Shown here one piece after another: positions 33,479-43,746 of a stretch of DNA of 64,000 nucleotides; positions within the stretch are counted from its first letter, which is position 1; every line of letters starts with the position of its first letter. Source of the DNA: Olivibacter sp. SDN3. Lineage in GTDB: Bacteria > Bacteroidota > Bacteroidia > Sphingobacteriales > Sphingobacteriaceae. The stretch is from assembly GCF_014334135.1 (NCBI RefSeq), contig NZ_CP060497.1, positions 5,952,001 through 6,016,000 of the forward strand. Reading direction: 5' to 3'. Under the pieces are notes generated by a model, which had not been told where the DNA came from, did not search any database, and saw only the letters and a list, made by a program, of their open reading frames with translations. A program made the position numbers and the translations under genes.

Positions 33479-36400
33479 ATGGATTATAACAAGACGAACA
33501 ATTTATTTGGATGGATAACCTTTTTGATTTCCACCATCGTTTATGTGTTAACACTGGAACCTACTGCTAGTTACTGGGATTGTGGAGAATTTATCGCCGC
33601 AGCTTATAAAATGCAGATAGTGCATCAGCCTGGAGCACCTTTATTTCTGATGTTGCAGAATATCTTCAGCAATCTAGCTTTTGGTAATAAAGAAGCTCTT
33701 GCCTACTGGATGAATTTTGGTTCCGCTGTATCCAGCGGTCTTACCATTTTATTCTTATTCTGGACGATCACCGCGTTAGCGCGAAAGGTTTTATGGAAAA
33801 ATGGTACCGAGCTCACGCAAGGTAACTTAATACAGATTATCGGAGCGGGTTTAGTCGGCGCACTGGCCTACGCGTTTTCAGACACTTTTTGGTTCTCGGC
33901 AGTAGAGTCAGAAGTTTATGCGATGTCATCGTTATGTACCGCCATCGTTTTTTGGGCTATCCTGAAATGGGAAGCGCATGCAGGTGAACCCCGTGCCGAT
34001 AAATGGCTACTCTTCATTGCTTATATTATGGGGCTATCAATTGGTGTTCACTTGCTCAATCTTTTAACAATTCCCGCATTGGCACTAGTTGTATATTTCA
34101 AAAGAACCAAACAGGCTACCAATGGTGGTATATTTAAGGCACTTCTCATAGGTATTGTCATAGTAGCTTTTGTATTATGGGGAATTATTCAGTACCTTAT
34201 CAAATTCGCGGCCTACTTTGATCTTTTCTTCGTAAACAGTTTGGGATTTGGATTTGGTTTCGGTGTCGTATTCTTTACCCTGTTGATCATCGGCGGACTA
34301 ACATATGGCATTTTTTATTCGATCAAACAGCTGAAACCACGATTAAATCTCATCTTATTGGCCATTTGCTTTATCATCTTTGGTTATGGTTCTTTTGCCA
34401 TGATCTTAGTGCGTGCCAAAGCAGATACCAGTCTAAACAATAGTGATCCCGATAATGCCTTCTCTTTCCTAAGTTACCTCAACAGAGAACAATATGGAGA
34501 AGAACCATTAGTGAAAGGCCCCTATTTTACATCTAAACCAATCGACAGAAGCGAAGGAGGTAGTACCTATATAAAAGGTGAAGAAAAGTATGAAAATATC
34601 GGTCGTAAGTACAACTACATATACGATCGTGAAACTGTTTTTCCACGTATTTACAGCAGTGATGCCGGTCGTGGCCACCCACAATTTTATCGTAGCTGGC
34701 TTAATATGGGCGAAAATGAGCAGCCAACCTTCGGTAACAACCTCAATTTCTTTTTCACCTATCAGATCGGTCATATGTATGCCCGCTATTTCTTCTGGAA
34801 TTTTGTTGGCAGACAAAATGATCAAAAAGGAGATGGCAGCTTTACCGAAGGCAATTGGATCACCGGAATAAAACCCATCGATCAGGCGCGCTTAGGTGGC
34901 CAGGAGGTCTTACCGGAATCCCTTAAAACAGATCCTTCCAATAATAAGTATTATGGCTTACCACTCATATTGGGTATTATAGGAGCCTTATGGCATTTCA
35001 AAAGGCACCAAAAGGATGCAGGTATTGTAGGTCTACTCTTTTTCTTCACAGGTTTGGCCATTGTGCTTTATCTCAACCAGACACCGATGCAACCACGCGA
35101 GCGGGATTACGCTTATGCAGGTTCATTTTACGCCTTTGCTATATGGATAGGTCTAGGGGTAATTGGTCTGGCAGACTTCTTTCAAAAGAAAACGAACCAA
35201 AAAAATGCTGGAATAATAGCAACTGTCATTGGTTTATTAGTTGCACCGGTATTAATGGCAAAAGAAGGATGGAACGACCATGACCGATCAACCAAATACG
35301 TCGCACGCGATCTTGCCAAAAATTACCTGGAATCCTGTGCTCCCAATGCCATATTGTTCACTTATGGAGATAACGACACCTATCCGTTATGGTATGTGCA
35401 GGAAGTAGAAAATTTCAGACCAGACGTACGCATCGTTAACTTAAGTCTATTAAGTGCCGATTGGTATGTACGCCAGATGAAAGAAAAAGTAAACGAAGCA
35501 GAAGGGCTACCCATCACCATGACAGACAGTCAATTTAAACAGGGCACCCGTGACGGTATGTCTTATATGGATAGAGGATTTAAAACACCTGTTGAGCTAG
35601 GTAGTGTATTAGATGTGTTGCTCTCTGACAATCCCAACGATCAGGTTGAATATCAAGACGGAAGCCGATCTAACTATCTTTTTACCAAAAAATTTCAGTT
35701 AACTGTGAATAAAGAAGATGTAGTGGGCAACAACGTCGTTCCAGCCAAATGGAAAGACAATATTGTAGACACTATGGTTTGGGACTATAATAAAGACTAT
35801 GTTTCAAAAGCAGAATTGGCAATATTCGACATCTTGGTGCATAACGACTGGAAAAGACCAATTTATTTTGCCACAACCGTTCCTAATAGTAACTATCTAG
35901 GATTAGATAATTATTTGATCAATGAAGGATTCGCTATGCGGCTCATGCCTATACGATTAGACAAGCCATCAGAAGAGGAAATGTCCATGGGAGAATCGGT
36001 TAATACAGAAGCGCTCTACGAAAACACCATGAATAAATTTGCTTGGGGAAATCTGGCAGATGCCCGCTACCTAGATCCTGAATCTTACGGCATGCTATCG
36101 CTCATTATTAATAATTTCAGCACCCTTAGCCAGTCGTTGATCGAAGAAGGCAAACCGGAAGAAGCACAAAAGGTCTTGAGCAGGTGCTTAGAAGTTATAC
36201 CAGAACGTATTTACTCGCTCCGCGAGGCCCGGGTACTTTATTTCTTAAATAGGCAACTATACCAAGCGGGCTCTATAGAAAAGGCAAATGAATTGGTCGA
36301 AAGAAACGGTAAATATGTAAGTGATCTCTTAAAGTACTACATTTCCATATCGAAGACCAAGCCAAATCTAGAAATGCAGAATATCCAAATGGGTACACAG

Positions 36401-36511
36401 GTTATCTACAGTTCCGCAGAGCTTGCCAAAGAATACAAACAGGAAAAGCAGGCAAAAGCGCTAGAAGATTCATTAAATGAAATCGAGAAACTATTTGGGG
36501 GTTCTCAATAA
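33479..36511 (+). CDS. DUF2723 large membrane protein, GT-C-like
   Basis: 1010 residues. About a dozen hydrophobic helices fill the first 560 residues, followed by a large soluble part and helical, TPR-like repeats near the C-terminus (about 880-980). The conserved first-loop motif SYWDCGEFIAAAYKMQIVHQPGAPL contains the acidic pair expected of lipid-linked GT-C glycosyltransferases of the protein O-mannosyltransferase type. The family is widespread in Bacteroidota. A role in transferring a lipid-linked sugar to a protein or envelope glycan is inferred; donor and acceptor are unknown. It is a single-gene unit closed by a strong terminator. Confidence 0.88.
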   Translation: MDYNKTNNLFGWITFLISTIVYVLTLEPTASYWDCGEFIAAAYKMQIVHQPGAPLFLMLQNIFSNLAFGNKEALAYWMNFGSAVSSGLTILFLFWTITALARKVLWKNGTELTQGNLIQIIGAGLVGALAYAFSDTFWFSAVESEVYAMSSLCTAIVFWAILKWEAHAGEPRADKWLLFIAYIMGLSIGVHLLNLLTIPALALVVYFKRTKQATNGGIFKALLIGIVIVAFVLWGIIQYLIKFAAYFDLFFVNSLGFGFGFGVVFFTLLIIGGLTYGIFYSIKQLKPRLNLILLAICFIIFGYGSFAMILVRAKADTSLNNSDPDNAFSFLSYLNREQYGEEPLVKGPYFTSKPIDRSEGGSTYIKGEEKYENIGRKYNYIYDRETVFPRIYSSDAGRGHPQFYRSWLNMGENEQPTFGNNLNFFFTYQIGHMYARYFFWNFVGRQNDQKGDGSFTEGNWITGIKPIDQARLGGQEVLPESLKTDPSNNKYYGLPLILGIIGALWHFKRHQKDAGIVGLLFFFTGLAIVLYLNQTPMQPRERDYAYAGSFYAFAIWIGLGVIGLADFFQKKTNQKNAGIIATVIGLLVAPVLMAKEGWNDHDRSTKYVARDLAKNYLESCAPNAILFTYGDNDTYPLWYVQEVENFRPDVRIVNLSLLSADWYVRQMKEKVNEAEGLPITMTDSQFKQGTRDGMSYMDRGFKTPVELGSVLDVLLSDNPNDQVEYQDGSRSNYLFTKKFQLTVNKEDVVGNNVVPAKWKDNIVDTMVWDYNKDYVSKAELAIFDILVHNDWKRPIYFATTVPNSNYLGLDNYLINEGFAMRLMPIRLDKPSEEEMSMGESVNTEALYENTMNKFAWGNLADARYLDPESYGMLSLIINNFSTLSQSLIEEGKPEEAQKVLSRCLEVIPERIYSLREARVLYFLNRQLYQAGSIEKANELVERNGKYVSDLLKYYISISKTKPNLEMQNIQMGTQVIYSSAELAKEYKQEKQAKALEDSLNEIEKLFGGSQ

Positions 36512-36551
36512 TAACAAAAGAAAGCAGGATATCCCGCTTTCTTTTGTTATT
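36510..36551. terminator. Bidirectional terminator between DUF2723 and susD
   Basis: A perfect 16-bp stem (36510-36525 with 36536-36551, core ACAAAAGAAAGC) and a 10-base loop. Its arms include bases of both convergent stop codons. Confidence 0.85.
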
Positions 36552-38343
36552 ACCATCCCGGATTTTGGATCAAGTTTCTATTTCTATCCATTTCTGACTG
36601 AGGAATAGGCCACAAATAATGTTTGGACTGAAAAACACGTCGTTCAAATACGGTGCGTTGGTAAAATGAAGGATCTGTATAGCTGTTTCCTTCTTCGACA
36701 TTCATCCCGTAGAAGTTTCCTCCGTCTGTTTCTTCTGCTATTTTCCATCTGCGTGTATCAAAAAAACGATGACTTTCGAAAGCCAACTCTACACGCCTCT
36801 CTTGCCGAATCCGTTGTCTCATCTCTTCTTGAGACAGGCCATTTTCTACCGGGGGTAACCCCGCACGCTCTCTGACCAAATTCAGATACCTTGTGATGTC
36901 AATGTTACCCGGATCATATTCATTCAATGCCTCTGCATAATTTAGATAGATTTCTGCTAATCGAAAATGCGCATACGGTCTTCTATTCCATAAACCAATC
37001 CGAGGGTTTGAATTTGGGTGAATATTTTTTCTAACGAGATAACCGGTTTTACTGTGATCCCAAGAACCTTGAAGTCCCGAGTTTCCTGTTCGATGTAGTC
37101 CGATTTGTCTATCCCCTTCACTGGTATTGATCCAATAAGAACCATTGTAGACTATGGAAACATAAAACCTAGGTTCACGATTTGCATACATATTATAATC
37201 ATGCCGATGATGATATTTACCATCACTTGCAGCAAAGCCCTCCTCCAAGTATCCTGATCCCTCTTCATCTATCGCTTTTCCATTCTCCATAAAATAAGTA
37301 TCTACCTGTTGTTGTGTTACACCAACACCGCTATAACCGCTCGCTATCCGTGGTGTGCTGTACCTCTCCCAGCCTTGATGATCCCAATCCATACGCACAA
37401 AAATCTGCTCTGAATTCCAATGCTCCAAGAAAACGTTCTGATAGGATAAAAATGGATCAATATTTCCTTCACTGTCATATTCTTTATATAATTCGAACAT
37501 CCCTAAATCAATCAACGCTTTACTCGCTTCAGCTGCCACTCGCCATTTATTTTCATCGTATTGCGGGTTAATCAACGGCGTACCATCCGTATTTGTAAAC
37601 CCGGCATAATCTGTATTCCCATTATATAAGGCGCTAGCAGCGTATAATAACAATCTAGATTTAACAGCCCTGCACCACACGGATGTAGCACGAGCTTTTT
37701 CCGTAGGATCTGAATATGCGCTTGGCAATTGCTCAGCTATTTCATCCAGCTCGCCCACGATATAATTTACACACTCATCGTAGGTACTACGTGGAAACTG
37801 GACTTCTTCCAACGGTGCATCAGGAGCGATCAACTCGGGAACAAGAATAATAGGTCCGTATTGTCTCAATAAACAGAAGTAAAAGTATGCTCTCAAGAAT
37901 CTTGCCTCCGCGGTATAACGAGCAATTAGCTGTTCACCCTGCTGACCAAGCGCTAAAATCTCTTCATTCCCTCCTATATTTTCCATAAAATAAGTAGCTG
38001 AGCGAACTCCCTGGTAGTAGTGTTGCCAATGCTGTGCATAATTCGCGTTGGGATCCCAAGAACCAAGATTAATAAAAGCTGTAAAATGTTGGGCCCAAGT
38101 CATATCTGCTTCATCCGCAACTCCCACCCAAGGGTTTTCTGTCCATTGATTTCCCTCTTCTTTTATTCTATTATAAATATTCGCTAAATATTTCTCTGAA
38201 TCCACGCGGCGGTTAAACACGTCCTCCATTGTAATTCGATCATCTGGCACCTGATCAAAAAAATCTTTTTGGCAAGAAGAAAGAATAATCAACAAGCCGC
38301 AAACCATACAAATCTTAAAGAAGAATCTATTATAAATTTTCAT
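36550..38343 (-). CDS. SusD/RagB family nutrient-binding lipoprotein
   Basis: 597 residues with a signal peptide and lipobox (LSS-C24). The SusD pattern is clear: DQVPDDRITMEDVF near the N-terminus, the RFLRAYFYFCLLRQYGPIILVPE segment of the TPR core, and the C-terminal RLAEIYLNYAEALNEY and RRVELAFESHRFFDTRRW motifs. It forms the lid of the SusC channel on the outer membrane and binds a glycan or other oligomeric nutrient. It is 11 bases downstream of susC and so in the same transcript. The ligand is unknown. Confidence 0.95.
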   Translation of the reverse strand: MKIYNRFFFKICMVCGLLIILSSCQKDFFDQVPDDRITMEDVFNRRVDSEKYLANIYNRIKEEGNQWTENPWVGVADEADMTWAQHFTAFINLGSWDPNANYAQHWQHYYQGVRSATYFMENIGGNEEILALGQQGEQLIARYTAEARFLRAYFYFCLLRQYGPIILVPELIAPDAPLEEVQFPRSTYDECVNYIVGELDEIAEQLPSAYSDPTEKARATSVWCRAVKSRLLLYAASALYNGNTDYAGFTNTDGTPLINPQYDENKWRVAAEASKALIDLGMFELYKEYDSEGNIDPFLSYQNVFLEHWNSEQIFVRMDWDHQGWERYSTPRIASGYSGVGVTQQQVDTYFMENGKAIDEEGSGYLEEGFAASDGKYHHRHDYNMYANREPRFYVSIVYNGSYWINTSEGDRQIGLHRTGNSGLQGSWDHSKTGYLVRKNIHPNSNPRIGLWNRRPYAHFRLAEIYLNYAEALNEYDPGNIDITRYLNLVRERAGLPPVENGLSQEEMRQRIRQERRVELAFESHRFFDTRRWKIAEETDGGNFYGMNVEEGNSYTDPSFYQRTVFERRVFQSKHYLWPIPQSEMDRNRNLIQNPGW

Positions 38344-38354
38344 AGTTATTTGGT

Positions 38355-41300
38355 TTAAAAGGTTACCTGTAAACCCAGGCTGTATATTTTTTGTTGAGGG
38401 TATATTGCGCCCCTACCATCCCCGAGTTCAACATCCCAAAGGTCAAAATCTGAGAACGTCAGTAAATTAAATCCCTGAAAAAAAATGGTGGCAGAACTCA
38501 ACCTTAACTTTTCTACGAGCTTCGGGTTAAACGTATAATTGACGTCAACGGTCTTTAAGCGCAAAAAAGCACCGTTCCGAACCCAATGAGAACTTGTACG
38601 ATAATTCATATTTTCGTCACCAAAAGATAATCTTGGGTAAAATGCATTTGGGTTTGGGTTTTCTACTGTCCAGCGATCTTCGTTCACCAAGGTAAAAACA
38701 TTCCCTTCCGAACCACCTCTTTGGAAAGGAGCAAAGCCTACGCCGTTTAATAAAATATCCACATCTCCAATGCCCTGAAAAAATGCAGCAACAGAAAATC
38801 GCTTATAATTAAATCCGAAACGCATTCCATATACCAACCTAGGAAAAGATCCATAGCCAATAGGAGCCTCATCATTTGCATCAATTAAGCCGTCGCCATT
38901 TAAATCAACATACTTTAAATCACCCGGCCTGGTATCTCCCACCTGTGTCGCGCTGTTTTGTATCTCCTCCTCACTAGTAAAAAAACCTTCCGCTATGTAG
39001 CCAAATCTTTGACCAATCTGTTGACCTTTTCTTTCACGCCACGGATAATTCCAAAGTGGCAGATCATCCTCAATTACAGTTGTTCTGTTATAAGTGATTG
39101 TCGGTTGAAAATTCAAGCTAAAACTATTGGACAGATCTTTGCGATACGTCATGGAAGCATCAAAACCCTTATTCTCCGTTCTTCCAAGGTTACCGTATGG
39201 GTTGTTAATCAGTCCAACAAACGCCGGAACTGCACTCCTCCTCAAAAAAGAACCATCCCGTAGCTCCCTGAATAGATCAAACTGTACATTTAGGTCACCT
39301 TTAAAAATATCGAAGTCAATGCCCAGGTTGGTCTTGGTTGACCTTTCCCATGTTACATCTACGGCATACTCTTCGAAATCTGTTCCATCAAAGTGGCGAT
39401 TATAAGTTTCTCCAAATTGATATCCTCCAGAACCTTCTCCTACTGTTCCTATATATGCGAAACGCCTCCCACCAATATCCGCATTGCCAACAACACCGTG
39501 CGAAAAGCGAAATTTAGCTAAGGGAACAAAACCTTTTAAAGACTTAAAGAAAGATTCTTCCGACAACACCCACCCAAGGCCCAGCGAAGGGAAAAAGCCA
39601 TATCGTCTCTCAGGCAGAAAATTCTCTGATCCATTAAAGCCAAAATTTAGCTCCAATAGATACCGATTGTCAAAATCGTATGTCCCTCTTCCCGCAAAGC
39701 CTCTATATCTATAAGGAAGGGAGTTTATGAAATCATTAGCTATAGAGTTTATAAAGTCCGATTGATTGAATAAAAACATCCCGGTAACATTATGCTTATC
39801 AAAACTCCGCACATAATTGATCGCCGCCTCCGTATAAAAGCGACGTTCCATTTCATTACCTGTTCGTTCAAAGCTCAAATACGGGCTACCGACGTTCGTT
39901 TGCTGTAAAATAAGCTCACCAGCCTCGTTACGCTCCGTAGCATAGTAGGTGTCTGGAACCCGATGTCTACGCATCGTCGTACTATTATAATAATCGAAAG
40001 CGAACATAGCATAAGCTGTTAGGCCTGGAGTTATAAAATTAAAATCTTGTGTAGCCCTTATATTCGAGTTTACCCGGTTTCTTACGTGCTTTGCAAAGCC
40101 AGTTTGCGTTAACATCGTGTAGGGATTACTCAAACTATTTGGTCCACCTGCATCTACTCTAGCTTCAGCCAGAGCCCCATTAGTATACCTTAAAGGAAAA
40201 AGTACCGGCGTAATATCCATTGTCCGACCAAAAATATTTTCTGTACCAGCGCCCGGATAATTGCCATCCAGTATAAATCCTTGCACGCCCAAATCAACCT
40301 TGGTGGTAGGAGTTGCCTGCATGGATAGGTTGGCAGTAAAATTATAACGATCGAGCGCCATTTTCGAATTATATCGCTGCAACTCATCTCTTTTGAATAG
40401 CCCTACTTCGTTAAAATAGGCGGCAGAAACATAAAAATTTGCCCTTTCAGATCCTCCCGTCATATTTAAATTAAACCGCCGATTCCGACCAAAATCTTCA
40501 AACAGTTCGTTCATCCAATTCACATTGGGATAAAGGTCGGGGTCTATACCTGTTCTCGTTAGCTCAATTTCTTCAGCAGTATAAGCAGCACTCCTTCCCC
40601 TATTGGTTAGTGCTTCATTTGTCAAGGACATATAAGTAGGGCCATCAACAAATTGAGGCACCCTAACGAAATCAGAGATCCCCTCGTTATAACCCGCTAC
40701 GACCTTTGTCTTTTGCACAGCCCCTTTTCTTGTGTTGATGAGAATAACACCATTGGCACCTCTTACGCCATATACAGCCGTGGCAGATGCATCTTTTAAG
40801 ATGGAGAAACTCTCAATATCCTCCGGATCAATATCTTGAAAGGGTCGTTCCACCCCGTCAACCAAAACCAAAGGAGCACTGGAACCACTTAGACTTGCCT
40901 GTCCACGAATAAAAATATTTGCATTGTCATACCCGGGCTCACCTGACCGCTGCACCCCTACTATCCCTGATAGTCGTCCCGCAAGTACAGTAGATAGATT
41001 CCTTACTGGCGTTTTTAACTCTGTAGGGCGTACCGTAGATTGAGCACCAATGCTGGTTAATTTCTTTTGCACGCCAAACCCCACTACAACTACTTCTTCT
41101 AAACTACTGGCGTCGGCCTGCAATTCGATATTGATCAACGTTTCTTTATCGACAAATACTTCTTTCGATTTATACCCAACATAGGATATGGATAAAATAG
41201 CGTTCTCGAGAACATCTATCACATATTTTCCTTCCTCATTGGTAGTAGTGCCTCGCTGCTCTCCCTTAACCCGAATAGACACCCCTGGTAAAACAGCTCC

Positions 41301-41741
41301 TGTGCTATCAGTGATTGTACCTGTAACAGTAATAGTCTCTTGCTGCTCTGCTTTTTCTACCAGTGTTATTGTTGTTTTTTTCCTTAAAGCTACTGTGCCC
41401 GCTATTTTTTTATAAGAGAGTGACTGTTCTGCCAATACCCGATCTAATACTTTTAAGAAGTCCATATCAGCTACTTGTATACTGACAGGCTTACTACTAC
41501 GCATTATATCACTATCATAAATAAACCGTATTCCAGTTTGTTTTTTAACCACCTCCAGAAAATCCGGTAATGGGAGTTCTTTAACATTGATCGATATTTT
41601 TTGTGCCTTTAGATTTGCATGGGCTGCAAATGAAAAAAGTAACACCCAAACAACTATAAGTTTCATTATTAGTATAATCTTAGGTATAAATGGGCAAAAG
41701 CTTTCACCCTCCGGCACTTGGCCAAGAGAAAAGTTATTCAT
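38355..41741 (-). CDS. SusC/RagA TonB-dependent outer-membrane transporter with STN domain
   Basis: 1128 residues from the ATG at 41741 (MNNFSLGQ...). Upstream in-frame codons to 41819 encode sequence unlike a signal region and overlap a terminator hairpin; a later ATG at 41666 is also possible. After the signal region come an STN domain (SINVKELPLPDFLEVVKKQTGIRF), which relays signals to FecR-type anti-sigma factors, a CarboxypepD_reg beta-sandwich, the plug (LVLVDGVERP, ILKDASATAVYG) and a 22-strand-type barrel. The STN domain and the adjacent sigma/FecR genes predict trans-envelope signalling: substrate binding releases the sigma factor. The substrate is unknown, since no enzyme genes lie nearby. 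Confidence 0.93.
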   Translation of the reverse strand: MNNFSLGQVPEGESFCPFIPKIILIMKLIVVWVLLFSFAAHANLKAQKISINVKELPLPDFLEVVKKQTGIRFIYDSDIMRSSKPVSIQVADMDFLKVLDRVLAEQSLSYKKIAGTVALRKKTTITLVEKAEQQETITVTGTITDSTGAVLPGVSIRVKGEQRGTTTNEEGKYVIDVLENAILSISYVGYKSKEVFVDKETLINIELQADASSLEEVVVVGFGVQKKLTSIGAQSTVRPTELKTPVRNLSTVLAGRLSGIVGVQRSGEPGYDNANIFIRGQASLSGSSAPLVLVDGVERPFQDIDPEDIESFSILKDASATAVYGVRGANGVILINTRKGAVQKTKVVAGYNEGISDFVRVPQFVDGPTYMSLTNEALTNRGRSAAYTAEEIELTRTGIDPDLYPNVNWMNELFEDFGRNRRFNLNMTGGSERANFYVSAAYFNEVGLFKRDELQRYNSKMALDRYNFTANLSMQATPTTKVDLGVQGFILDGNYPGAGTENIFGRTMDITPVLFPLRYTNGALAEARVDAGGPNSLSNPYTMLTQTGFAKHVRNRVNSNIRATQDFNFITPGLTAYAMFAFDYYNSTTMRRHRVPDTYYATERNEAGELILQQTNVGSPYLSFERTGNEMERRFYTEAAINYVRSFDKHNVTGMFLFNQSDFINSIANDFINSLPYRYRGFAGRGTYDFDNRYLLELNFGFNGSENFLPERRYGFFPSLGLGWVLSEESFFKSLKGFVPLAKFRFSHGVVGNADIGGRRFAYIGTVGEGSGGYQFGETYNRHFDGTDFEEYAVDVTWERSTKTNLGIDFDIFKGDLNVQFDLFRELRDGSFLRRSAVPAFVGLINNPYGNLGRTENKGFDASMTYRKDLSNSFSLNFQPTITYNRTTVIEDDLPLWNYPWRERKGQQIGQRFGYIAEGFFTSEEEIQNSATQVGDTRPGDLKYVDLNGDGLIDANDEAPIGYGSFPRLVYGMRFGFNYKRFSVAAFFQGIGDVDILLNGVGFAPFQRGGSEGNVFTLVNEDRWTVENPNPNAFYPRLSFGDENMNYRTSSHWVRNGAFLRLKTVDVNYTFNPKLVEKLRLSSATIFFQGFNLLTFSDFDLWDVELGDGRGAIYPQQKIYSLGLQVTF

Positions 41742-41748
41742 AATTTTG
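41717..41748 (+). promoter_or_regulatory. Antisense promoter lying on the susC start codon
   Basis: CTTG (41717-41720), a 20-base spacer and TAATTTTG (41741-41748), a perfect -7 box, point opposite to susC. The -33 element is half of the palindrome CTTGGCCAAG (41717-41726). Transcription should start near 41754. Confidence 0.65.
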
Positions 41749-41753
41749 GTAAG

Positions 41754-41834
41754 ATTATGGTTATTAAATTTTAGATTGTAATTAGTTAGCCGTAATTCAT
41801 TCCGGGAGTGCCCGCACACTTCCGGTTTTTTGTT
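41754..41834 (+). ncRNA. Predicted cis-antisense small RNA against the susC leader (DonS-like)
   Basis: The interval runs from the predicted start after the antisense promoter to the T-tract of an intrinsic terminator on the plus strand. The terminator stem is CCGGGAGTG/CACTTCCGG (41802-41810 with 41817-41825, nine pairs including one G-U), with a 6-base loop and a TTTTTTGTTTT tail. The G-U pair exists only in the plus-strand RNA; on the minus strand it becomes an A-C mismatch, and the tail becomes an A-tract before the stem, so the orientation is clear. There is no plus-strand gene to terminate. The RNA would pair with the susC mRNA from about 13 to 90 bases ahead of the start codon. Bacteroides species use such RNAs to repress sigma/anti-sigma-controlled glycan loci. 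Confidence 0.62.
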
Positions 41835-41885
41835 TTAGATAACATGTATTATTTCATATGTTTCAGCCTCCTTTCTTCTCTTATT

Positions 41886-43067
41886 TTATAATGTAGTCTC
41901 TTTAGCATAAACTATTAGCTTATTATTTATAATATAGAATTTATAGTCACTAACAACTTCGAGAACGTCACATACTTCACTTAATTTATCTGCTCGACTG
42001 ACTGTTCCGGTAATTCGCTGTTTTCTAACATTCTTCTTATACTTGATATCTACATTGTACCATCTACTAATTTCCTCCAGGACTTCTTTTAACGGTTGCT
42101 CGTTGAAGTAGAAGTATCCTTCTTTCCAAGCGGTAGCTTTTTCTATATCAGCAACAGAAACTTTTAAGCTACCTTTTGCAAGTGTAGCTTCTTGTCCGCG
42201 ATAAAGCTTCGCCGAATTTTTATTGCCCACAACTTTCACAACCCCCTCCGTCAGGATCGCTTGAAATTGTTTATCGTAAGCAGAAATGTTAAATTGCGTA
42301 CCGAGAGCTTCCGTAGTCACCTGACTTGCCATCACCTTGAAAGGTCTGTCGGGGTCTCTGGCTATATCAAAATAGGCTTCACCCTTCAAAAAAACCTTTC
42401 GCTCATCAGAAGAGAATTGAATAGGAAAACGTAGTTCCGACAGCGCATTGAGCCAAACCTTTGTTCCATCGGATAACGTCAACTGATAAGTACCAGCAGT
42501 TGGCGTATGTAACTCATTGTACAACAATTCTCCTTGACTAACTATCGCGCCGTTATGATAAGCTACCGAATTATTGTCACTATTAATCTGAATGCCATTT
42601 GTTTCGTTAAGTGCTTGTTCCTCCGGCCCCAACGGTACTTTCTTTCCATTCGACAAAATCAATATACCTTTATCTGATCCTGGCAATATATCATTTGCAT
42701 GTGCACTACCTACATAAGGAACTATACGATCAGAAATTTCTTTATTAAAGTGAAATTGATATATACCAAGGAGTGTACAAACTATTGCCGCGAATACTGC
42801 CGCGTACGATAGGTATAACCGCTTATTCTTTTTGGCTCTTATCGTATTTAGCCTACGTTGCTTTTTCCAGGCCACGTCCACGTCAATGTCAGCGATATAA
42901 GATATTCCGTCTAATACTTTTCGGTCATCTTTAAAATTTGCTAATATCTTATGATGAGTTTCATCTTGATTCAACCATTCATTTAGCTCCTTTTCTTCCA
43001 GAGGCGTGGATTCACTACGTATATAATTGGCAATTATTTGTGCAATATGAAAATCTTCCTTTTTCAA
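41886..43067 (-). CDS. FecR family anti-sigma factor
   Basis: 393 residues. A short cytoplasmic N-terminal part (about 1-80) precedes one membrane helix at 84-104. The periplasmic FecR domain follows (GTYQLTLSDGTKVWLNALSELRFP and FLKGEAYFDIARDPDRPFKV), then the C-terminal DUF4974/STN-like part (FYFNEQPLKEVLEEISRWYNV). It holds the ECF sigma factor inactive at the inner membrane until the SusC STN domain signals. It lies 66 bases after the sigma gene, with an 8-bp inverted repeat (43071-43078 with 43099-43106) in between, and 144 bases ahead of susC. Confidence 0.95.
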   Translation of the reverse strand: MKKEDFHIAQIIANYIRSESTPLEEKELNEWLNQDETHHKILANFKDDRKVLDGISYIADIDVDVAWKKQRRLNTIRAKKNKRLYLSYAAVFAAIVCTLLGIYQFHFNKEISDRIVPYVGSAHANDILPGSDKGILILSNGKKVPLGPEEQALNETNGIQINSDNNSVAYHNGAIVSQGELLYNELHTPTAGTYQLTLSDGTKVWLNALSELRFPIQFSSDERKVFLKGEAYFDIARDPDRPFKVMASQVTTEALGTQFNISAYDKQFQAILTEGVVKVVGNKNSAKLYRGQEATLAKGSLKVSVADIEKATAWKEGYFYFNEQPLKEVLEEISRWYNVDIKYKKNVRKQRITGTVSRADKLSEVCDVLEVVSDYKFYIINNKLIVYAKETTL

Positions 43068-43133: not shown

Positions 43134-43697
43134 TTAAAAATTTAGAAAAAAAATTAAAACATTCAGCACCGAGGGATGTAGCTTCTTTTTGAGAATCTTG
43201 AGTCCTCGTTGTTTTTGAGTTTTTACGGTATTAACACTTATTCCAAGCATTTCAGCTATTTCCGCATTTTTAAGCCCCTCTAAATAGCCCAATCTGAATA
43301 TTTCCTGACAGTTCTCCGGCAATGTAGCAACGACTTGATAGAGTTCATCTAATACCTCCGCGTTGATAAGCGCCTCTAATACGGTATCCTCTTCGTCATC
43401 AACTTCTTCCCTTGTCTCGAAATATCTATTTATCACTTTTTTCCTTCTTTGTATATTAAGGCAGATATTTTTTACGTGCGTATACAAAAAATTCTTGATA
43501 GCGATAGGATGATCTGAAAGAATTTCCTTCTTATCCCATAACGCTAAAAAGGCCTCTTGCACCGCATCGTCGGCTGTATGCTTTTCCTGAAGTAATTGGT
43601 ATGCAAAGTAAGATAATGAACGATAATGTGTTTTAAATAACTTCTCAGCATTATCATTTATAAAATTTCTAGGGTTATTTTCACCAACTATGCCCAT
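43134..43697 (-). CDS. ECF RNA polymerase sigma factor, FecR-linked
   Basis: 187 residues from the ATG at 43697 (an upstream TTG would add one residue). Region 2 is visible (LSYFAYQLLQEKHTADDAVQEAFLALWDKK...FLYTHVKNICLNIQRRKK) and region 4 has the helix-turn-helix LGYLEGLKNAEIAEMLGISVNTVKTQKQRGL. It belongs to the Bacteroidota ECF group paired with FecR and SusC. It should direct transcription of susC-susD and possibly other genes. A consensus housekeeping promoter lies about 53 bases upstream. Confidence 0.95.
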   Translation of the reverse strand: MGIVGENNPRNFINDNAEKLFKTHYRSLSYFAYQLLQEKHTADDAVQEAFLALWDKKEILSDHPIAIKNFLYTHVKNICLNIQRRKKVINRYFETREEVDDEEDTVLEALINAEVLDELYQVVATLPENCQEIFRLGYLEGLKNAEIAEMLGISVNTVKTQKQRGLKILKKKLHPSVLNVLIFFLNF

Positions 43698-43746
43698 CAA
43701 TATAAATTAGGTTTACTATTGCAATAATTGCTGGTATCTAGACAGG

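Follow-up and report, generated by a model that had tools for sequence, protein, structure and literature searches.

A DonS-type cis-antisense RNA of about 79 nt, started by a housekeeping promoter, appears to brake an ECF sigma/FecR-controlled susC gene in Olivibacter sp. SDN3, a reading to which we give a probability of about 0.8. Its promoter, terminator, strand, conservation and 5′ stem are read from sequence, and we infer its transcription, repression and pairing mechanism. The kind of RNA is already known in Bacteroides. Many receptor genes of related bacteria show this arrangement too, and for that reason the predicted RNA probably acts as a genuine brake on them rather than being a chance pattern. 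A preliminary description of this DNA had predicted an antisense small RNA over the susC leader and likened it to DonS; the prediction gains support from a conserved promoter and terminator and from strand-specific wobbles and T tails.

The window, the whole 64,000-nt stretch that was analysed, contains these receptor genes and presumed regulators:

38355..41741, minus strand: susC (SusC/RagA, TIGR04056, with an STN domain, which was checked for the window SusC only), start taken as the ATG at 41741
36550..38343, minus strand: susD (SusD_RagB, E 2e-66)
41886..43067, minus strand: fecR, anti-sigma factor (FecR E 4e-17, FecR_C E 1e-17)
43134..43700, minus strand: ECF sigma factor of the Bacteroidetes type (TIGR02985 above cut-off)
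41742..41885, minus strand: fecR–susC intergenic region, read from the sequence as the susC leader and presumed target of the antisense RNA

All four genes lie on the minus strand, and profile matches place the sigma and FecR genes next to susC, which the ECF sigma/FecR pair presumably controls. These domain matches bear out the neighbours given in the preliminary description. The sole plus-strand ORF of at least 60 aa overlapping the region is 64 aa long and has a TTG start. The susC ATG occupies 41739–41741 (CAT as its plus-strand complement), and we place the start at 41741 because the receptor of a paralogous cassette in the same genome (L082) has a similar N-terminal extension, beginning MNNFPKGQ against MNNFSLGQ at the window susC. 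On the far side of the receptor genes, a TMEM260-like protein O-mannosyl-transferase gene (33479–36511, plus strand, Pfam PF11028) stands tail to tail with susD and ends just short of it. Rfam models at gathering scores matched tRNA alone in the whole window; in the small region, a hit to L20_leader (18.1 bits against a gathering score of 58.7, E 0.34) was taken as chance.

The antisense elements read on the opposite strand are:

41717..41720, plus strand: −33-like element CTTG (consensus TTTG, three of four bases), 20 nt upstream of the −7 box
41741..41748, plus strand: −7 box TAATTTTG, an exact TAnnTTTG of the housekeeping-sigma promoter type, overlapping the susC start codon
41754..41832, plus strand: predicted antisense RNA of about 79 nt, from the box and terminator positions and the RNA fold
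41754..41796, plus strand: 5′ stem-loop in which 41754–41763 pairs with 41787–41796, from the fold and related RNAs
41802..41831, plus strand: intrinsic terminator with a 9-bp stem, a 6-nt loop and T6, from sequence, scan, fold and related loci

The first T of TAATTTTG is the last base of CAT, so the perfect −7 box earlier described at the susC start codon is found there as an exact TAnnTTTG at 41741–41748. Of the accompanying −33 element, the presence of CTTG at its spacing stands, but the match is three of four and the element is weakly conserved in the family; among 75 loci with an exact box, C or T is commonest at position −24 (C in 33) and TTG begins at −23 in 10. The −7 consensus also occurs in Flavobacterium johnsoniae, without a detectable −33 motif there according to the accessible portion of PMC7366714. 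Downstream of the box, the 9-bp stem with a T-rich tail resolves into CCGGGAGTG-CCCGCA-CACTTCCGG at 41802–41825 and TTTTTT at 41826–41831 of the plus strand. One of its nine pairs, the only wobble, is G-U on the plus strand and an A-C mismatch on the minus strand, in keeping with the earlier statement that the stem forms better in plus-strand RNA. Taking the RNA to start 5 nt past the box, which is uncertain by a few bases, the 79-nt RNA folds at −22.6 kcal/mol (z −4.25) on the plus strand and −13.6 (z −1.48) on the minus strand. Every base of the predicted RNA has its complement in the susC mRNA leader, in the stretch that lies about 13 to 91 nt before the start codon.

A SusC protein scan of named genomes gave nine loci. 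Six of these have both a long N-terminus and an upstream FecR, in Parapedobacter luteus (L097; Sphingobacteriales) and Dyadobacter (L098–L102; Cytophagales), and all six carry an exact box starting two bases past the CAT start together with an antisense T-tailed hairpin; the five Dyadobacter loci count as little more than one case because they are close relatives. The loci from Olivibacter (L096) and Robertkochia (L103), whose SusC lacks the long N-terminus, have no exact start box and no hairpin of score 10, and L104, a weak partial match, was left out of the orthologue comparison. In the Dyadobacter RNAs the stretch from promoter to terminator contains one more hairpin, CACTTGCTTGCCGGCAAGTG or a close variant of it.

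The genome itself is a single contig of 6.12 Mb with 56 SusC genes, and all 56 leaders were scanned. Twenty of the genes were classed by length as having a long N-terminus; immediately upstream of every one of them, a comparison by eye shows a FecR_C match. Fourteen of the 20 carry an exact antisense TAnnTTTG at −8 to +3 of the start, and none of the remaining 36 does; in this second group two genes have a box within 25 nt, and a scripted search found no hairpin at either.

Since loci should not be chosen by the signal itself, the wider survey began from FecR_C matches and scored the start of the gene that follows FecR, whose identity as a receptor was not confirmed at every locus. The sample consists of the best FecR match per genome and further matches lower down the lists, not every match; further loci of the class set come from five genomes chosen by the author, and one locus (L133) was placed in its genome (G026) by elimination. 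Ten of 190 loci were dropped because the FecR model had no match and four of the remaining 180 for other reasons (two without an ORF, one duplicate, one short), which leaves 176 that could be scored. The layout was counted where an exact box at the start was joined by a hairpin of score at least 10 with at least four T in the next eight bases. Conservation of promoter and terminator, on which the preliminary description had staked its case, is seen in all six named orthologues, in 15 of 28 FecR loci of the same genome and in 41 of 88 FecR loci of the order, the last spread over 19 of the 28 order genomes sampled. The Bacteroides-type layout that it had noticed in a sphingobacterial genome thus stands at the window locus and belongs to a pattern seen at 15 loci of that genome. 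Allowing one box mismatch in the usual registers raises the figures to 18 of 28 own loci, 55 of 88 order loci and 22 of 28 order genomes; a looser earlier tally of own loci had given 18 of 29, and the own-genome hairpin count takes in one poor hairpin (L076). The antisense RNA is not obligatory, because 10 of the 28 own-genome FecR loci lack a matching box/hairpin pair even with one box mismatch allowed. Neither an exact start-codon box nor a scored T-tailed hairpin is present at the own FecR loci L067, L070, L077, L084, L088, L089, L093 and L095.

Between promoter and terminator, the RNA has a second stem at its 5′ end that was absent from the preliminary description. In the 59 loci with a box and a T-tailed hairpin, which yield predicted RNAs of 57–128 nt (median 92, with the start assumed 5 nt past the box), the pre-terminator part is more strongly folded as antisense RNA (mean z −1.30) than as sense RNA (−0.39), with the lower z on the antisense side in 48 of the 59. 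A frequent partner of the 5′ end (TAGGTTTA-like) is the AAGCCTA-like sequence directly before the terminator. Mean pairing is 8.05 with each RNA's own partner and 6.45 (sd 0.19) with re-dealt partners, none of 200 deals reaching the former, in a set that includes related loci. Wobbles in this stem are G-U in 43 cases and A-C in 5. The 5′ stem co-varies, and does so strand-specifically. This observation bears on the strongest rival, in which the antisense promoter and terminator are real and the act of transcription regulates susC by promoter occlusion or polymerase collision, the RNA itself being waste. The box and the terminator are the best conserved parts, and RNA synthesis would run head-on into susC transcription, as such a scheme asks; a waste RNA would need no co-varying stem, and we consider the scheme unlikely.

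The strand of the RNA can be read from the hairpins themselves, which were picked by a score that gives G-U and A-C equal weight and is therefore blind to strand. In 62 hairpins at exact-box loci, wobbles on the antisense strand are G-U in 58 cases and A-C in 2, with G-U only in 45 loci, A-C only in one and both in one. Because A-C on one strand is G-U on the other, selection has kept the pairing of the antisense RNA. Of 116 leaders, 74 have a tail of at least four T on the antisense side and 8 have one on the sense side. Wobbles and T tails together support a predicted RNA that belongs to the plus strand.

The motif TACATTTG, or CAAATGTA on the sense strand, coincides with the SusC ATG in five registers (28, 8, 4, 1 and 1 loci), which argues that the DNA, and not the protein or its reading frame, is conserved. 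The antisense promoter covers the first codons of susC genes L066–L092 and L105–L244. In the −2 register (28 loci) it forces Met-Tyr as the first residues, and the promoter spacer sits in the N-terminal extension that precedes the signal peptide. An alternative would make the hairpin a 5′-leader element of the minus-strand susC mRNA, such as an attenuator, stabiliser or protein-binding site, and the box a by-product of start-codon context. The inverted repeat does sit in the leader and folds on the minus strand too, and since the box includes the start codon itself in 28 of 75 exact-box loci, the start context could help create TACATTTG. Against this stand the bias of wobbles and T tails towards the antisense strand, the use of one motif in five registers and the absence of a start box from all 36 short-N-terminus SusC genes, and the alternative is very improbable.

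It is similarly hard to credit that the hairpin chiefly ends plus-strand transcription coming through susC and so shields fecR and the sigma gene. The hairpin is a good plus-strand terminator; yet a T-tailed hairpin lies downstream of the box in 59 of 75 exact-box loci, and the box/hairpin pair occurs at none of the 36 short-N-terminus susC genes.

At the window locus alone the evidence is weak, because a loose terminator scan of 7 kb found a single site where shuffles lead one to expect 5.2. A chance match in AT-rich DNA could appeal to this lack of significance at a single locus, and is barely conceivable given the counts of layout, boxes, T-tailed hairpins and 5′-stem pairing across loci, which contradict it. 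Of the 176 FecR loci, 75 have the exact antisense box on the start codon, against a mean of 2.8 and a maximum of 5 in first-order Markov shuffles; in the same loci the mirrored motif is found 5 times and the sense-strand box not at all. When the box registers are moved by 12 to 60 or by −14 to −26, one-mismatch boxes fall from 97 to 7–21 of 116. In the 116 own and order leaders, hairpins of score at least 10 number 81 (1–4 in each of eight shuffled sets) and T-tailed antisense hairpins 74 (0–3 in each), figures in which shuffles, like the re-deals above, overstate independence because the counted loci are related to each other. The comparison across loci puts the box/hairpin pattern far beyond chance.

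Beyond the order, exact box and hairpin occur together in 3 of 37 loci of the class set and 0 of 23 of the class/phylum set, and FecR_C is present in 18 of 60 and 33 of 61 genomes of the class and phylum sets. A further family (f32) is of the Bacteroidales type: one of its genomes (G061) matches the RNA Bacteroidales-1 (RF01693) at 166.6 bits, and in a control of 14 genomes this model matched in Bacteroides ihuae only. Seven of the family's 77 loci were dropped (one without FecR, five without an ORF, one short), and eight of the remaining 70 are shared with the class set. These 70 FecR loci have 11 exact boxes and 17 T-tailed hairpins, with both at nine; the hairpin accompanies 9 of 11 exact boxes and 8 of the 59 other loci. 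With one box mismatch, 14 of 70 have both signals, and their wobbles are G-U in 15 cases and A-C in none. We prefer the exact count of 9 of 70 because the one-mismatch rule is loose (34 of 70 pass). With both signals at nine loci, the layout extends to a family of Bacteroidales type, DonS being known from that order, where it is less frequent than in the window's order. As the layout is rare or absent in the wider sets and FecR_C is found in only part of their genomes, the survey does not extend the layout past these orders.

Three further features of the leaders were followed. In many of them, AGAAAGGAGG and then an ORF of 1–5 codons lie between fecR and susC; a leader peptide was rejected as a separate signal. 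GGAGG is found near the fecR end in 31 of 62 antisense-RNA loci (4.7 in shuffles, which ignore fecR codon choice), and since it precedes the fecR stop in 29 of the 31 and the ATG after it shares the fecR frame in 21, its letters mostly spell the fecR C-terminus, read by eye as Arg-Arg-x-x-Val-Met-x-stop. On the minus strand of the window, GGAGG (41867–41871) falls 14 nt past the fecR stop, and 9 nt on is ATG-AAA-TAA (41849–41857); because most relatives with GGAGG use those letters as the last fecR codons, the window fecR seems to have lost its tail, and its GGAGG looks like a remnant. A search for an ECF promoter of susC in 18 of 21 GGAGG leaders, from 32, revealed no second element that clearly keeps a constant spacing. 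Finally, when 15 own-genome RNAs were set against 15 leaders, 27 of 210 non-cognate pairs passed the 1% threshold of shuffled controls, which we do not count as evidence of cross-talk because shared self-complementary (palindromic) stems alone could explain it.

We propose that housekeeping RNA polymerase would start the RNA at the TAnnTTTG promoter on the susC start codon, and that the transcript would stop at the terminator (41802–41831) and fold into two stem-loops. A constitutive antisense RNA would then cover the susC leader and, by pairing with it and blocking translation or stability, would most likely keep susCD low, to which opposed polymerases may add interference. When FecR frees the ECF sigma factor, susC transcription would override the RNA and run through the antisense promoter. 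Repression is not certain, because some antisense RNA–susC pairs of B. thetaiotaomicron correlate positively in the accessible text of PMC10994844. More tentatively, and with odds somewhat against it, the structured cis-antisense RNA could be an ancient fourth part of the ECF sigma/FecR/SusC cassette that predates the split of Bacteroidales, Cytophagales and Sphingobacteriales, was copied with the cassette and was lost in some lines. It might act as an RNA and not through transcription alone, with a conserved 5′ stem that must open or be bound by protein before leader pairing, and the at least 15 sister RNAs of a single genome might have enough sequence in common to act partly on each other's targets. 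The conserved 5′ stem is a directly testable part. Should the layout prove as common as this sample implies, a dozen or more such RNAs would be found in each genome of some environmental Bacteroidota, the mechanism could be read from co-variation over a very large number of loci, and susC leaders and antisense RNA-seq reads would have to be annotated differently.

The closest known systems are the PUL cis-antisense RNAs of Bacteroides, which, as far as the available parts of the cited papers describe them, are 78–128 nt long and divergently encoded to susC homologues of mucosal-glycan systems (PMC7366714), typically under ECF sigma/anti-sigma control (PMC11697453). Fifteen such loci are reported in B. 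fragilis and 32 antisense RNAs are annotated in B. thetaiotaomicron (PMC9723704, PMC10994844), where the TAnnTTTG promoter type stands at 52% of cis-antisense candidates (PMC7366714). DonS represses its PUL by a mechanism that the accessible text calls unknown (PMC11697453), some antisense RNA–susC pairs of B. thetaiotaomicron anti-correlate and others correlate positively, and the class is described as needing functional study (PMC10994844). In Flavobacterium psychrophilum, likewise a member of the phylum outside Bacteroidales, antisense RNAs occur genome-wide and are put down mostly to imperfect termination and non-canonical initiation; the accessible portion of that paper describes no susC start-codon family, refers to the Bacteroides studies and presents its list of antisense RNAs as a point of departure for similar work (PMC9723704). 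Our search of the accessible literature, which does not prove absence, found no report of a susC start-codon antisense family outside Bacteroides. The likeness of the window RNA to DonS, compared here by the part of its published description available, is one of layout, position and predicted length. The RNA is cis-antisense to a susC homologue over start codon and leader, a likeness in position only; its predicted 79 nt falls within the 78–128 nt of the DonS type (PMC7366714), and its susC adjoins an ECF sigma/anti-sigma gene pair of the kind that typically governs DonS-type loci. The window site adds a TAnnTTTG promoter and an intrinsic terminator on the antisense strand, two features that the accessible description does not state for DonS, any more than it gives the structure of DonS or the place of its promoter on susC. 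Unlike DonS of Bacteroides, the layout described here, known from sequence alone, is found in Parapedobacter (Sphingobacteriales), Dyadobacter (Cytophagales) and the window's own genome.
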